Assembly: GCA_039944855.1 (NCBI GenBank)
Contig: JBDUXZ010000040.1
Location: 1-64,000 of the forward strand
Length of the DNA: 64,000 bases
Origin: Rhodothermales bacterium
GTDB taxonomy: Bacteria > Bacteroidota > Rhodothermia > Rhodothermales > JANQRZ01
Reading direction: 5' to 3'
A program made the position numbers and the translations under genes. Positions 23,017 through 56,827 of this stretch are shown one piece after another. Under the pieces are notes generated by a model that ran no database searches, was not told the DNA's origin, and worked only from the letters and a program-made list of their open reading frames with translations. Every line of letters starts with the position of its first letter. The first letter of the stretch is position 1.

Positions 23017-23193
23017 CACGGAGCGGGTTGGATGGACGACATCAGACACTTGTTTTTATTAGACACTCCGCCTTCCCCTCCGTAACTCTCCCCCTGATAT
23101 TCAGGCCCACATCCGCGCCCGCGCCTCGCCACCGACGCAGCGTTGACACCGCGCCGTCGTACGTTGGCGGCTCCCCGCCCGCCTCCCCCCGCC

Positions 23194-23952
23194 ATGATCG
23201 TTCGCACCGACGCCGTCGTCCTCCGCGCCATCGAATACGGCGAGACGAGCCAGATCGTCACGCTCTTCACGCGGCAGCACGGGCAGCTCACGGTGATGGC
23301 GAAGGGCGCGCGTCGCCCCAAGAGCCGGTTCGGGTCGTCGCTCCAGCCGATGGCCTACGTGCAGGTCGTCTACTACTACAAGCCCGGCCGGGGCATGCAG
23401 ACGCTGAAGGAGGCGACGCACGTCCGCGTCCTCCACGGGACGGCGGCCGACATGGGCCGGATCACGGTCGGGCTGCGGATGGTCGAGCTCGCGCGCGTGC
23501 TCTCACAGGACCAGGAGCAGAACGTCCTCCTCTTCACGCTCCTCGTCCAGTCGCTGCTTCGGCTCAACGACGCGCCCGAGCGAGCCGCGAACGTGCTGCC
23601 CTACTTCCAGCTCCGCCTCGCCGCCCTCCTCGGCTTCTCTCCCGACATCGACCGCGACGCTGTGCTCGCCCTCGACGACGGCGGCGGCGTGCTCGCGCTC
23701 GACACCGGGGCCGTCCTCCCGACGGCCGCCGTGCCGAAGGCGGGGCTCCGCGCGAGCCGCGCCGCGCTCCGCTCCTTCGCCGTCTTCGCCCGCGCCGACC
23801 TCGACACCGTCATGCGGATGGCGCTCGACGACGACCTCCGCGCGGAGGTGAACCGCCTCGTCGACGCTTTCCTGCGGCACCACGTCGAGGACGCGTATCC
23901 GCACCGCGTCAGCAAAGTTATCGACCAGCTCACCGCGCGGACGGGGCGCTGA
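23194..23952 (+). CDS. recO: DNA repair protein RecO
   Basis: The 252-residue protein starts at the ATG at 23194, matching the conserved RecO start MIVRTDAVVLRAIEYGETS. The N-terminal OB fold (VTLFTRQHGQLTVMAKGARRPKS...) and the helical C-terminal part fit RecO. The role is loading RecA onto SSB-coated single-stranded DNA with RecR (RecFOR pathway) and strand annealing. The zinc-finger cysteines found in some RecO proteins are absent, which is common in the family. Stand-alone gene; the upstream ATG at 23143 would add only a Pro/Arg-rich leader. Confidence 0.92.
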   Translation: MIVRTDAVVLRAIEYGETSQIVTLFTRQHGQLTVMAKGARRPKSRFGSSLQPMAYVQVVYYYKPGRGMQTLKEATHVRVLHGTAADMGRITVGLRMVELARVLSQDQEQNVLLFTLLVQSLLRLNDAPERAANVLPYFQLRLAALLGFSPDIDRDAVLALDDGGGVLALDTGAVLPTAAVPKAGLRASRAALRSFAVFARADLDTVMRMALDDDLRAEVNRLVDAFLRHHVEDAYPHRVSKVIDQLTARTGR

Positions 23953-24091: not shown

Positions 24092-24793
24092 ATGAACACG
24101 ACCACCCACTTCCTCTCCGCCCTCTTTTTCCTCGGCGTGCTCGGCGGCCTCACCGCCTGCGCCGACGTCGGCGACGCCCCGCAGGCTACCGTCGAAGACG
24201 TGTCGCCGATGGCGAACGCGGCCGAGCCGTTCACCGGCACGCCCGTCGCCATCGACACCGCGCAGAGCGCCATCCGCTGGCGCGCGGCGAAGGTGACCGG
24301 CGCGCACGATGGCGGCTTCCGCACCTTCGACGGCGTCGTGTACCGCGACGGCGGCGTCCTCACCGGCGTGGACCTCACGATCGACGCGGCCTCCATCTGG
24401 AGCGATAACGAGAAGCTCACCGGCCACCTCAAGAGCGCCGACTTCTTCGACGTCGAGCAGTTCTCCGAGGCCACCTTCCGCGCCGACTCCTTCGAGCTCA
24501 TTGCCGTCGAAGACTCCGTTGAGTGGGCCGAGGCCACGCACCGCATCGGCGGCGTCCTCACGATGCACGGGCAGGCGCAGCGCATCACGTTCCCCGCGAA
24601 AGTCACCGTCACCGACGACGCCATCACGGCCACCGCCGACTTCCTGATCGAGCGCAGCCGCTGGGATCTCACCTACCCCGGCAAGCCCGACGACCTCATC
24701 CAAGAAGAGGTCCGGCTCATGTTCGACGTCGTGGCACCGGGCACGATGGAGCCCGCTGCCTCCCAAGGCGAAACGGCGTCGGTTTCGGGCTGA
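24092..24793 (+). CDS. YceI-family lipoprotein
   Basis: The 233-residue protein has a lipoprotein signal (LGVLGGLTAC, Cys about 23) followed by an acidic linker and a YceI domain (about 50-225): IDTAQSAIRWRAAKV, DLTIDAASI, LKSADFFDVEQFSEATF, and the late ITFPAKVTV and FLIERSRWDLTYPGKPDD. YceI proteins are lipocalin-like barrels that bind polyisoprenoids or similar lipophiles in the periplasm. Here the domain is expected to be tethered to the membrane. A palindromic operator candidate lies at 24034-24049. The gene is probably monocistronic, followed by the lexA-like promoter region. Confidence 0.92.
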   Translation: MNTTTHFLSALFFLGVLGGLTACADVGDAPQATVEDVSPMANAAEPFTGTPVAIDTAQSAIRWRAAKVTGAHDGGFRTFDGVVYRDGGVLTGVDLTIDAASIWSDNEKLTGHLKSADFFDVEQFSEATFRADSFELIAVEDSVEWAEATHRIGGVLTMHGQAQRITFPAKVTVTDDAITATADFLIERSRWDLTYPGKPDDLIQEEVRLMFDVVAPGTMEPAASQGETASVSG

Positions 24794-24825: not shown

Positions 24826-24890
24826 CTATGTGTGAAAAGTGGGGTTTTTAGTCTCCCCATTTGACACACTATGTGTGAGTAACGTATGTT
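24826..24890 (+). promoter_or_regulatory. Promoter and operator candidate of the lexA-like gene
   Basis: CTATGTGTGA occurs twice (24826-24835 and 24869-24878). The second copy is part of the dyad CACAC-TAT-GTGTG (24865-24877). A TTGACA (24861-24866) and TATGTT (24885-24890) 18 bp apart look like a sigma-70-type promoter, with the dyad overlapping the -35 box and spacer. This arrangement fits autorepression by the downstream LexA-like protein. The start site and binding have not been shown. Confidence 0.5.
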
Positions 24891-24941: not shown

Positions 24942-25604
24942 ATGAGCCGCAAGCAGCTTACGTCTAAACAGCACTCCTTCCTGCAGTTCCTCGCCGAGCA
25001 TGTGCGGAAGCAGAAGGTCTGGCCGACCTACCGCGAAGTGGTCGACCACTTCGGCTACCGCTCGCCGAACTCCGTGACGCAGAACCTCCAGGCGCTCGCG
25101 AAGAAGGGCTACCTCACACGGGACCAGAACGGCTACCGGCTCGTCGGGCAGCGCTCCGGGCTCCAGGCCACCGGCTTCCCGGTGCAGGGCACGGTCGAGG
25201 ACGGCTCGTTCGAGATCAGCCTCAGCGTCGACGAGATTACGCTGAAGGACCTGTTCCCGGAGCTCGACAAGACCTTCGCCGTGCGGCTCTCGGATCAGGA
25301 AGCCCGCGGGATCAACGTGGACGGCGGCGGCTACCTCCTGCTCCAAGAGGCGGAGGTCGGCAACGGCGAGATGGCAGCGGTGCTCTACGGCGGTGCCCTC
25401 GACGTGTGCCGGGTCTACCGCGACGAGGACGAGTTCCGCCTCCTGCACGACGACGGGACGGAAACGTCGGTGAGCGCGGGGCAGAAAGGCTTCAAGCTGC
25501 TCGGCCGCTACGCCGGGCACATCAACCAGCGTGGCCTCTTTCGCTCGCCTGCGGCGTCCTACGTCGAATACGGCATGGACGACAGCGTCGTGACGACGGC
25601 ATAG
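24942..25604 (+). CDS. LexA-like repressor lacking the self-cleavage residues
   Basis: The 220-residue protein matches LexA in length. The N-terminal 68 residues form the LexA winged helix-turn-helix (LTSKQHSFLQFLAEH, PTYREVVDHFGYRSPNSV). The C-terminal part aligns to the S24 latch domain without gaps around the catalytic sites, but the key residues differ. The Ala-Gly cleavage site of E. coli LexA (VAAG) reads VEDG at 85-88. The nucleophile Ser119 position is Glu120 (RLSDQEARG). The general-base Lys156 position is Cys156 (LDVCRV). It should dimerise and bind DNA but not autocleave. Control by another signal is therefore inferred, as for the non-cleavable LexA of Synechocystis. No recA or other SOS gene is adjacent. 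Confidence 0.85.
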   Translation: MSRKQLTSKQHSFLQFLAEHVRKQKVWPTYREVVDHFGYRSPNSVTQNLQALAKKGYLTRDQNGYRLVGQRSGLQATGFPVQGTVEDGSFEISLSVDEITLKDLFPELDKTFAVRLSDQEARGINVDGGGYLLLQEAEVGNGEMAAVLYGGALDVCRVYRDEDEFRLLHDDGTETSVSAGQKGFKLLGRYAGHINQRGLFRSPAASYVEYGMDDSVVTTA

Positions 25605-44365: not shown

Positions 44366-44871
44366 CAAGTGGTCTTCAGGTTTGTTGGGATATCAATCCG
44401 GTCGAAGTGTACAAACAACGCCGGGGTTCTCGCGAGGGCACGCTGCCGTCGCCTATCCCCCCACTATTCACACCCGCTGCGTCCTCGCGCCCGATCCGTG
44501 ACCACTCCAGCCTTTTCGATGACCCTTCACATTCCGGGCCCGCAGGTTGGCACGATCGCCCCCCAACGCGGTGTCCTCTCTCGGTGACCCGTTGCACGGC
44601 CTGTCTACGGCGGTGCACGCAGCAATGAAGTGGGCTGCAGCCGGCCGAAAGCAGTACCCGTGCTCTCCCCTTCTCTGAACACTCCTCTTTGGCTCCAAAC
44701 GGACATAACCGAGGGTCTTCACATTTGTTAAACACATCCTTCACACACCTGCTCGAAGATGGCAAGGTCTTGGGACTATATCTCGTGCATCCGAATGAGG
44801 AAGGCTCCGCCCTTCAACCGGACCCCTCCTCATTCGGCCCCTCATGCCCCACAGAGATAAACCCGAATCCT
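44366..44871. other. Divergent intergenic region, about 500 bp
   Basis: This lies between the beta-CASP gene and the cell-wall hydrolase, which point away from each other. I see a perfect 11-bp inverted repeat at 44791-44837 but no convincing gene, tRNA or known RNA motif. The length leaves room for a non-coding RNA or long leader. Confidence 0.5.
44791..44837 (+). promoter_or_regulatory. Leader hairpin upstream of the cell-wall hydrolase
   Basis: Perfect arms CCGAATGAGGA (44791-44801) and TCCTCATTCGG (44827-44837) with a 25-nt loop lie 35 bp upstream of the hydrolase start, within its likely 5' leader. It could be an attenuator, an RNA stability element or an operator. No T-run follows. Confidence 0.5.
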
Positions 44872-54748: not shown

Positions 54749-55405
54749 TCAGCCTAGCCCCTCGGTCAACGTCGTGAGCGCGGCGTCGTACTGCTCGGCG
54801 AGGTCGGCGGCACGCCCCACGCTGAAGCCGAGGTCGCGGAGGAGGCCGTCTTCGATCCCGTAGATCCACCCGTGCACGTCCAGCTTCTGCCCCCGCGCCC
54901 ACGCCCCGCGTACGACTGTCGTCCGGCAGACGTTGACGACCTGCTCGACCACGTTGAGCTCGCAGAGCCGCCGCAGCCGGTCGTGCGCGTCGGTGAGGCG
55001 GTCGATCGCGGCGGCGTGTTTGTGCTTCACGTTCTGCACGTGGCGGAGCCAGTTATCGATCAGCCCGAACTCGCGGTCGGTGAGCGCGGCGAGCACGCCG
55101 CCGCAGCCGTAGTGCCCGCACACGATGACGTCCTCGACGCCGAGCACTTCGATGGCGTACTGGAGCACGGAGAGGCAGTTGAGGTCCGTGTGGACGACGA
55201 CGTTCGCGACGTTGCGGTGGACGAACAGCTCGCCCGGCCGGAGCCCGACGATGTCATTGGCCGGGACGCGGCTGTCGGCGCAGCCGATCCAGAGGTAGCG
55301 CGGGGCCTGCTGGCTCGCGAGGTGCTCGAAGAACTCGGGGTCGCGCTCGTGGATGCCGGCCGCCCAGGCCCGGTTGTTCTCGAAGAGGTGGTCCAGCGTG
55401 CGCAT
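54749..55405 (-). CDS. can: Beta-class carbonic anhydrase
   Basis: The 218-residue protein has the same active-site numbering as E. coli Can: Cys42, Asp44 and Arg46 in GCADSRVPAND, then His98 and Cys101 in CGHYGCGG. It catalyses CO2 + H2O to bicarbonate + H+ with one zinc per monomer. It is the third gene of a cluster with the SbtA bicarbonate transporter and its PII-like partner, 120 bp after the latter. It probably converts imported bicarbonate to CO2 for carboxylases, or the reverse. Confidence 0.95.
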   Translation of the reverse strand: MRTLDHLFENNRAWAAGIHERDPEFFEHLASQQAPRYLWIGCADSRVPANDIVGLRPGELFVHRNVANVVVHTDLNCLSVLQYAIEVLGVEDVIVCGHYGCGGVLAALTDREFGLIDNWLRHVQNVKHKHAAAIDRLTDAHDRLRRLCELNVVEQVVNVCRTTVVRGAWARGQKLDVHGWIYGIEDGLLRDLGFSVGRAADLAEQYDAALTTLTEGLG

Positions 55406-55417
55406 CGGTCGGAGGGG

Positions 55418-55455
55418 CTAGAGCGTGTGGGAGTTTAGATGTGTGGGATTTGGGA
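55418..55455. repeat. TGTGGGA-rich intergenic repeat
   Basis: AGAGCGTGTGGGAGTTTAGA followed by TGTGTGGGATT lies in the gap between the SbtB-like and carbonic anhydrase genes. It resembles the TG/GGA-rich stretches at 18334-18391 and 18929-18959. Confidence 0.45.
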
Positions 55456-55525
55456 CGCGGAGGGGCGAATCCGAGCAGGGGAGTACCTCGTCCCGTCCCC
55501 ACCTCCCTCCCCATACCACAGGGCC

Positions 55526-55828
55526 CTACATGTACTTCTCGCCGCGGACGACCTCGACGGCCTGCACCCACACGATCACGGCGTGGTGCTCGAAGTACTG
55601 CTCGGCGACGTGCTCCACGATGCGGTCGGCGACGTCGGGCGCGACGATGGCCTCGACACGGACGTTCCGCCCCTCCCAATCGCTGGCGCGGACGCCGCGC
55701 GAGCCCTCCCCCGTCGCGTCGGTGAGGGTGAAGCCGCGCGCGCCGAGCGCGGCGAGCTCTTTCAGCAGCCGGTCCCGCAGGAGCCGCTCGGCGACGACGG
55801 TGACAAGCTTCATCGGTACGGTAGCCAT
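55526..55828 (-). CDS. sbtB: SbtB-like PII signalling protein
   Basis: The 100-residue PII-like ferredoxin-fold protein has a beta-alpha-beta start MKLVTVVAERLLRDRLLKEL and GARGFTLTDATGEGSRGVRA before the T-loop. A second strand (NVRVEAIVAPDVADRIVEHV) is followed by a short end (VIVWVQAVEVVRGEKYM). It lies 36 bp after sbtA on the same strand. Cyanobacterial SbtB binds adenine nucleotides including cAMP and gates SbtA. The C-terminal Cys-containing loop of many cyanobacterial SbtB proteins (CGPxGC) is absent. The start may be the ATG at 55828 or five codons later. Confidence 0.85.
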   Translation of the reverse strand: MATVPMKLVTVVAERLLRDRLLKELAALGARGFTLTDATGEGSRGVRASDWEGRNVRVEAIVAPDVADRIVEHVAEQYFEHHAVIVWVQAVEVVRGEKYM

Positions 55829-55864
55829 GAGCGGAGGGGATGCGTGATCGGAGGGGAACGAAGC

Positions 55865-56827
55865 TTACGCCAGCCACTCGGCCAGGGCGAAGTAGAGCGG
55901 GATGCCGAGCGTGAGGTTGAACGGGAACGTGATGCCGAGGGCGGCGGTGAGGTAGAACGTCGGGTTCGCCTCGGGGAGCGCGATGCGGACGGCGGCGGGC
56001 GCGGCGATGTAGCTCGCGCTCGACACCATCGCCCCGAGCACGGCGGCGCCGCCGACGGAGAGCCCGGCCCAGCCCCCGGCCCACACCCCGAGCGCGCCGT
56101 GGAGGATCGGCACGACGACGCCGAAGCCGACGAGGAAGAGCCCGACCTCCTTGAGATCGCGGAGCCGCCGCGCCGTGACGAGCCCCATTTCGAGGAGGAA
56201 CAGCGTCAGCGCCCCTTTGAACCCGCCGACGAAGAACGGAGCCACGCCTTCCATCCCCTCGCGCCCCGCCGCCAGCCCGATGAGCAGGCCGCCGACGAGG
56301 AGGATCACGCTCCGCCCCGTCGTCACCTCGTGCAGCGCCGCCTGCCACGAGCCCGCCCGCTTCGAGCGCGTGTACGCGATCATGAGGGCGACGACGATCG
56401 CCGGGACTTCGAGGATCGCCACGAGCGCCGGCATGAACCCCTCAGCCTCGTACCCGGCGAGCGTTCCGAACGCGATCGCGACGATGAACGTGACGGCGGA
56501 GACGCTGCCGTAGTGGGCCGCGAGCGCGGCGCTGTTGACGCGGTCGAGCCGGCCGAGGCGGCGGAGCACGTTGTACGCCGTGATGGGCGTGAGCACGCCG
56601 AGCACGAGTGTCACGAGGGCGGGTCCGGCGAACTCCGCGAGCGGCGTCACGCTCAGCTCGACGCCGCCTTTGAGCCCGATCGCGAGGAGGAGGTAGATCG
56701 AGAGCGCGTCGTAGAGCGGGCGGGGGAACTCGAGGTCGCTCTTGACGAGCGACGCGACGATGCCCAGCACGAACGCGAGGATGATCGGCGAAAGGAGATT
56801 CGCGAGGATGATGTCGAGCGAGGGCAT
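55865..56827 (-). CDS. sbtA: SbtA sodium-dependent bicarbonate transporter
   Basis: The 320-residue protein has about ten transmembrane helices. The SbtA family pattern is clear: NLLSPIILAFVLGIVASLVKSDLEFP, YLLLAIGLKGGVELS, AAHYGSVSAVTFIVA, and the repeat-related GAMVSSASYIAAPAAVRIALPEANP near the C-terminus. The cytoplasmic loop between the two halves is short. It imports bicarbonate with Na+. It is first in the sbtA-sbtB-carbonic anhydrase-GNAT cluster. In a non-photosynthetic genome the likely role is supplying bicarbonate for carboxylation or pH control; this is inference. Confidence 0.92.
   Translation of the reverse strand: MPSLDIILANLLSPIILAFVLGIVASLVKSDLEFPRPLYDALSIYLLLAIGLKGGVELSVTPLAEFAGPALVTLVLGVLTPITAYNVLRRLGRLDRVNSAALAAHYGSVSAVTFIVAIAFGTLAGYEAEGFMPALVAILEVPAIVVALMIAYTRSKRAGSWQAALHEVTTGRSVILLVGGLLIGLAAGREGMEGVAPFFVGGFKGALTLFLLEMGLVTARRLRDLKEVGLFLVGFGVVVPILHGALGVWAGGWAGLSVGGAAVLGAMVSSASYIAAPAAVRIALPEANPTFYLTAALGITFPFNLTLGIPLYFALAEWLA

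Follow-up and report, generated by a model that had tools for sequence, protein, structure and literature searches.

Naturally uncleavable LexA proteins are best documented in Synechocystis, where the path of origin is not clear. LexA of Synechocystis sp. PCC 6803 retains the helix-turn-helix but carries Gly-Gly instead of Ala-Gly at the cleavage bond and Asp at the position of Ser119 (PMC3091678). It is reported not to control SOS genes and regulates carbon, motility, and salt genes instead; binding to the sbtA promoter and a tie to inorganic carbon are cited in PMC4759255, and a modification of the protein may modulate its activity (PMC7567884). A first-pass annotation of the DNA studied here had named this protein as the precedent, and rightly so (PMC3091678, PMC7567884, PMC4759255). 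These positions, or ones adjacent to them, are also altered in the laboratory-made variants G85D, S119A, and K156A of Escherichia coli LexA (PDB 1jhf, 1jhh, and 1jhe). LexA of Balneolaeota (Balneola vulgaris) belongs to the same helix-turn-helix family and is described as a conventional SOS repressor; its operator, ACACAT...ACAT with an 11-bp period, corresponds to a motif, TTACACATATTTTWTACATA, that was tested by EMSA (PMC7739468). The non-canonical LexA proteins of Bacteroidetes, a neighboring phylum, are S24 regulators that have kept Ala-Gly and the Ser-Lys pair but use a phage-type helix-turn-helix (PMC8565304). Literature on the SOS response of Rhodothermaeota was not found, searches on uncleavable LexA returned nothing, and those on Salinibacter and Rhodothermus yielded no paper relevant by its title.

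The lexA-A gene and its former cleavage site

The gene lexA-A is located at 24942..25604 on the plus strand of the window, which means the whole analyzed stretch of 64,000 nucleotides. The host genome (G000) belongs to family f1 of the order Rhodothermales and is available as an assembly of 4.6 Mb in 41 contigs with 97.9% completeness. Reading frame and coordinates were confirmed, and profile matches and alignments identified the 220-residue product as a LexA homologue. Upstream of lexA-A are recO (23143..23952, plus strand; PF11967/PF02565), which is the syntenic anchor of lexA-A throughout the order, and, between both genes in this genome, a gene of the YceI family (24092..24793, plus strand; PF04264). 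Position behind recO and best matches together established LexA-A as the orthologue of the cleavable LexA proteins of the same order.

The winged helix-turn-helix domain, residues 4 to 63 (24951..25130, plus strand), matched the LexA-type profile PF01726 with 54.2 bits at a cut-off of 23.7, and the recognition stretch SPNSVTQNLQAL was retained. Scores involving the C-terminal domain were lower: 11.6 bits for the S24 profile PF00717, which is under the Pfam cut-off, and 71.9 bits for the lexA model TIGR00498, below the NCBIfam equivalog cut-off of 110.95. A phmmer search against solved structures returned E. coli LexA. The S24/LexA fold of the C-terminal domain, missed by the sequence profile, was found in the predicted structure. 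The AlphaFold2 model had a mean pLDDT of 71.6, with values below 50 in the region of the cleavage loop (residues 71 to 99). All top Foldseek matches were LexA, with the E. coli variants mentioned above among the top structural matches. VIA-align gave a Z score of 10.6 over 158 residues against LexA chains, with a high rmsd for the whole protein because the two domains move, and a Z score of 8.6 for the C-terminal domain alone against the LexA fragment 1jhc. A C-terminal tail, residues 204 to 220 (25551..25601, plus strand; pLDDT below 50), is absent from E. coli LexA in the alignment and ends with VVTTA in the host genome and with TVTTT in the two other genomes of family f1 (G001 and G002).

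The first-pass annotation had claimed that the fold and the helix-turn-helix were kept while the cleavage determinants were lost, and profiles, predicted model, and alignments all agreed. In phmmer and two MAFFT alignments to E. coli LexA, Ala84-Gly85 corresponded to Asp87-Gly88 (25200..25205), Ser119 to Glu120 (25299..25301), and Lys156 to Cys156 (25407..25409), all on the plus strand. The alignment was free of gaps at these sites, as had been stated, with small indels elsewhere in the C-terminal domain. LexA-A thus possesses neither an Ala-Gly or Cys-Gly bond nor the Ser-Lys dyad. In the E. coli variants these sites were changed in the laboratory, whereas in LexA-A all of them are changed together and fixed in a clade. 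Compared to Synechocystis LexA, which comes from another lineage and for which only the loss of the dyad serine is reported, LexA-A of the host genome has lost both serine and lysine. In contrast to the non-canonical proteins of Bacteroidetes, it combines a true LexA helix-turn-helix with a lost catalytic site.

Loss of the cleavage residues within the order

The first-pass annotation had not been able to show intact orthologues elsewhere. An orthologue search in 60 genomes of the order revealed that the loss is clade-specific. All 45 LexA-A orthologues from 42 genomes and 12 families other than f1 and f12 contained Ala-Gly, Ser, and Lys, a count that leaves out one further protein (G035), which was not recovered. 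In the three species of f1 and the five examined genomes of f12 (G013, G032, G039, G046, and G053), Ala-Gly and Ser were both gone in 8 of 8 cases and Lys in 6 of 8. The f1 proteins displayed Asp-Gly or Asp-Glu at the bond, Glu, Ala, or Leu in the Ser column, and Cys in the Lys column of all three; Cys156 is the sole cysteine of LexA-A in the host genome. In f12, Thr or Val occupied the Ser column and Asp-Gly, Asn-Gly, or Gly-Gly the bond, never Ala-Gly, and an aligned Lys was present in two of the five genomes. Genomes of a third family, f3, gave no LexA-A match in this search. The losses in eight genomes together with the dN/dS values below 1 ruled out a sequencing error, a frameshift, or a pseudogene. 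A clade-wide loss of the residues for LexA autoproteolysis is true and well supported.

In a RecA tree, f12, represented by one genome (G013), and f1 were sister groups with a support of 87/94. A single old loss in the common ancestor of f1 and f12, before their split, is thus the simplest reading; independent losses in the two families would be compatible with this tree support, too.

The two domains of LexA-A have evolved differently. Among the f1 proteins, identity was 0.90 to 0.93 in the N-terminal but 0.53 to 0.69 in the C-terminal domain, while the intact orthologues showed the reverse pattern with mean identities of 0.64 and 0.79, respectively. Within f1, dN/dS was 0.025 to 0.06 for the N-terminal and 0.21 to 0.60 for the C-terminal domain; these are pairwise NG86 values, which are rough because synonymous sites were near saturation in some pairs. 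Judged from this constraint on the N-terminal domain, LexA-A is most likely functional in DNA binding. The C-terminal domain is under relaxed but not free constraint, and its dN/dS below 1 indicates that it still does something beyond plain decay.

Operators, a second LexA paralogue, and the carbon operon

The lexA-A promoters of intact relatives shared a direct repeat, approximately MTGTGT-N4-YATGTGT or ATGT-N7-ATGT, with an 11-bp period. The half-site YATGTGT occurred there with 2.2 versus 0.04 copies per kb. Exact matches to the repeat in 40 genomes were located at lexA-A (three), recA (two), umuD/umuC, mraZ, and a candidate rmuC, the latter being the reading of a fragment that the Pfam scan did not name; several matches were elsewhere. 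Read as its reverse complement, the Balneolaeota motif has this design, too. Given this match and the presence of the repeat at SOS genes, LexA-A very probably acts as SOS repressor in Rhodothermales. One exact SOS-type repeat was about 150 bp upstream of mraZ (L158 of genome G017), which suggests a possible control of the division cluster by LexA in intact relatives.

With the ancestral motif, the lexA-A promoter scored 14.3 bits in the host genome, 6.5 to 6.8 bits in G001 and G002, and 12 to 26 bits in intact relatives. At recA of the f1 genomes, the best score was 0.3 to 2.7 bits, so that an SOS-type box was undetectable with this motif, which separates the host genome from the conventional Balneolaeota system, as does the loss of Ala-Gly and Ser in the f1 and f12 proteins. 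The repeat is missing at recA in many intact families as well; therefore, its absence in f1 is not diagnostic of the clade that lost cleavage. Many recA promoters of the order (L061 to L089; in L089 near position -74 relative to the start) share another box, similar to TGACA-N6-TGTCA/TGACA, which is distinct from the LexA-A direct repeat.

The regulon in the host genome was probed by pattern searches only. The full direct repeat was not in excess genome-wide, with 29 matches compared to 51 in the reversed control, and TATGTGTGA was present in six copies versus about 2.5 expected in 4.6 Mb. Three of the six were at positions of interest, two at lexA-A and one in the intergenic region of mraZ and lexA-B. 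The first copy at lexA-A, a half-site of the LexA-A type, is at 24827..24835 and the second at 24870..24878, both on the plus strand; the latter is in the spacer of a putative promoter, TTGACA-N18-TATGTT (24861..24890, plus strand), as read from the sequence, of which TTGAC is kept in G001 and G002. The window contains no YATGTGT half-site other than these two. They were conserved neither within f1 nor in f12, and a shared operator was not found among the three f1 lexA promoters, which had only the TTGAC of the -35 region in common. Autoregulation is thus indicated for the host genome only. The top score in the window belonged to another site, three LexA-A-like half-sites with an 11-bp period upstream of a putative cell-wall hydrolase gene (44720-44749); this array was rejected since the orthologous genes of G001 and G002 do not share it.

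A search for a second, canonical lexA had been proposed. A second gene of this type was found, lexA-B, divergent from mraZ (L037:4450-5097, on contig C20 of the host genome at about 81449-82096), but its product is also without the dyad, with Gly for Ser119 and Ala for Lys156. PF00717 gave three matches only in the host genome, UmuD, LexA-B, and LexA-A, and UmuD, with Ala-Gly, Ser, and Lys intact, was the only S24 protein of the cleavable type found there. A cleavable LexA was not found, and the assembly of 41 contigs with 97.9% completeness leaves some room for one. LexA-B was present across the order, including f3, where it is the only one of the two. Of 17 aligned LexA-B proteins, 16 showed a DGM/AGM pattern, with Gly for Ser119 and Ala, Val, or Ile for Lys156; the 17th (G038) is divergent and has kept a serine in the Ser119 column. 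Most genomes contained a palindrome pair near GGTGAAAATNATTTTCACC upstream of lexA-B. G002 and some f12 genomes encode additional S24 proteins of cleavable appearance, either UmuD-like or accessory, which limits the statement that no cleavable repressor is present to the host genome. Two of those in G002 (L182 and L184) are near-twin LexA-like regulators in which the cleavage residues are intact; downstream of each are an open reading frame resembling an ECF-type sigma factor and another resembling a Ser/Thr kinase, as judged by eye.

A link to inorganic carbon had been raised as a speculation because of an SbtA-SbtB operon in the same window. This operon was confirmed at 55526-56827 on the minus strand, and a gene for a beta-carbonic anhydrase (54749-55405, minus strand) is part of it, so that a Rhodothermales genome contains an SbtA-SbtB-carbonic anhydrase operon (54749-56827, minus strand). 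The link itself found no support: a site of the LexA-A type was absent upstream of sbtA, with a best score of -0.04 bits for the ancestral motif, the only one used there. A 12.7-bit site at 55439, in the gap between sbtB and the carbonic anhydrase gene, was within chance for the window size and was discarded. The adjacency of lexA-A and sbtA at a distance of about 30 kb is not evidence of a link, and there is no evidence that LexA-A has targets like those of Synechocystis LexA.

Possible fates of an uncleavable SOS repressor

With a probability of roughly 0.6, LexA-A is an SOS repressor that turned into an autoregulated repressor blind to DNA damage when self-cleavage was lost in the ancestor of f1 and f12. 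Without the self-cutting switch, DNA damage would no longer turn LexA-A off in the textbook way. A vertically inherited Rhodothermales LexA would have lost its RecA-stimulated self-cleavage in this ancestor and, as far as the sequence indicates, may still bind half-sites of the TATGTGTG type. It would repress its own promoter by means of the element between -35 and -10, and perhaps also the divergent promoter of mraZ and lexA-B. RecA or DNA damage would not release the protein, the level of which may be set mainly by autorepression and turnover, and the SOS regulon proper, with recA, umuDC, and others, would have left the control of LexA-A. More tentatively, an old clade may have dismantled the LexA-controlled SOS response, kept LexA as a damage-blind repressor, and formed with the dyad-less LexA-B a LexA circuit that is coupled to the division cluster and works without autoproteolysis; this wider scenario is possible but doubtful.

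The first-pass annotation had concluded that such a repressor must respond to another signal. This is not required since an autoregulated constitutive repressor fits equally well. The main alternative, which appears rather unlikely, is nevertheless a C-terminal domain re-purposed as a sensor for a ligand, phosphorylation, or a thiol reaction of Cys156, so that a signal other than DNA damage releases the repressor. The persisting purifying selection on this domain, the conservation of Cys156 and of the stretch SLSxDEITLKDLFPxLD in all f1 genomes, and the salt-linked modification, possibly a dephosphorylation, of Synechocystis LexA (PMC7567884) are in agreement with a sensor. On the other hand, f12 has Gly or Lys instead of Cys156 and a C-terminal domain that shrinks further, no partner gene or ligand domain was recognized, and there was no operator at sbtA. 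Release by a general protease of the ClpXP or Lon type, for instance via the tail ending with TVTTT or VVTTA, seems improbable: this tail occurs in all f1 genomes with similar ends, and Clp is known to assist in removing fragments of the S24 repressor HdiR (cited in PMC8565304), but the tail is only weakly constrained (dN/dS of 0.28 to 1.1 over 14 codons), is missing in three of the five f12 proteins, and is not a recognized degron.

Just as improbable is a decaying remnant that does nothing but regulate itself and is heading for loss as in f3. The f3 genomes with LexA-B only, the shortened and diverged C-terminal domain in f12, and the failure of the pattern searches to find a wider operator set in the host genome would agree with decay; the retention of the gene in eight genomes of two families and the N-terminal dN/dS of 0.025 to 0.06 argue against it. 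Least of all is it to be expected that cleavage persists through another catalytic dyad at a different place in the C-terminal domain. Ser93, Ser95, Lys102, and Lys185 are common to the three f1 proteins as read from the alignment, but these candidates are outside the fold positions of Ser119 and Lys156, f12 has only a part of them, and a bond similar to Ala-Gly is missing at the site.

As outlined above, Synechocystis provides a published example of such a loss from a remote lineage; the lineage, the depth, and the comparative setting of the loss in Rhodothermales are new. A single order contains intact relatives, two sister families with a dead cleavage site, and one family without the gene, which makes the order of events readable and testable: catalytic Ser and bond were lost, Lys was sometimes kept, and the C-terminal domain is eroding while the DNA-binding domain is held tight. 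This is also a warning that a LexA helix-turn-helix in a genome is no proof of an SOS response, because genes such as lexA-A are easily annotated as LexA. In family f4 (G005, G019, and G029; L108, L198, and L199), an intact lexA-A is present as a tandem duplicate, and both copies contain Ala-Gly, Ser, and Lys.
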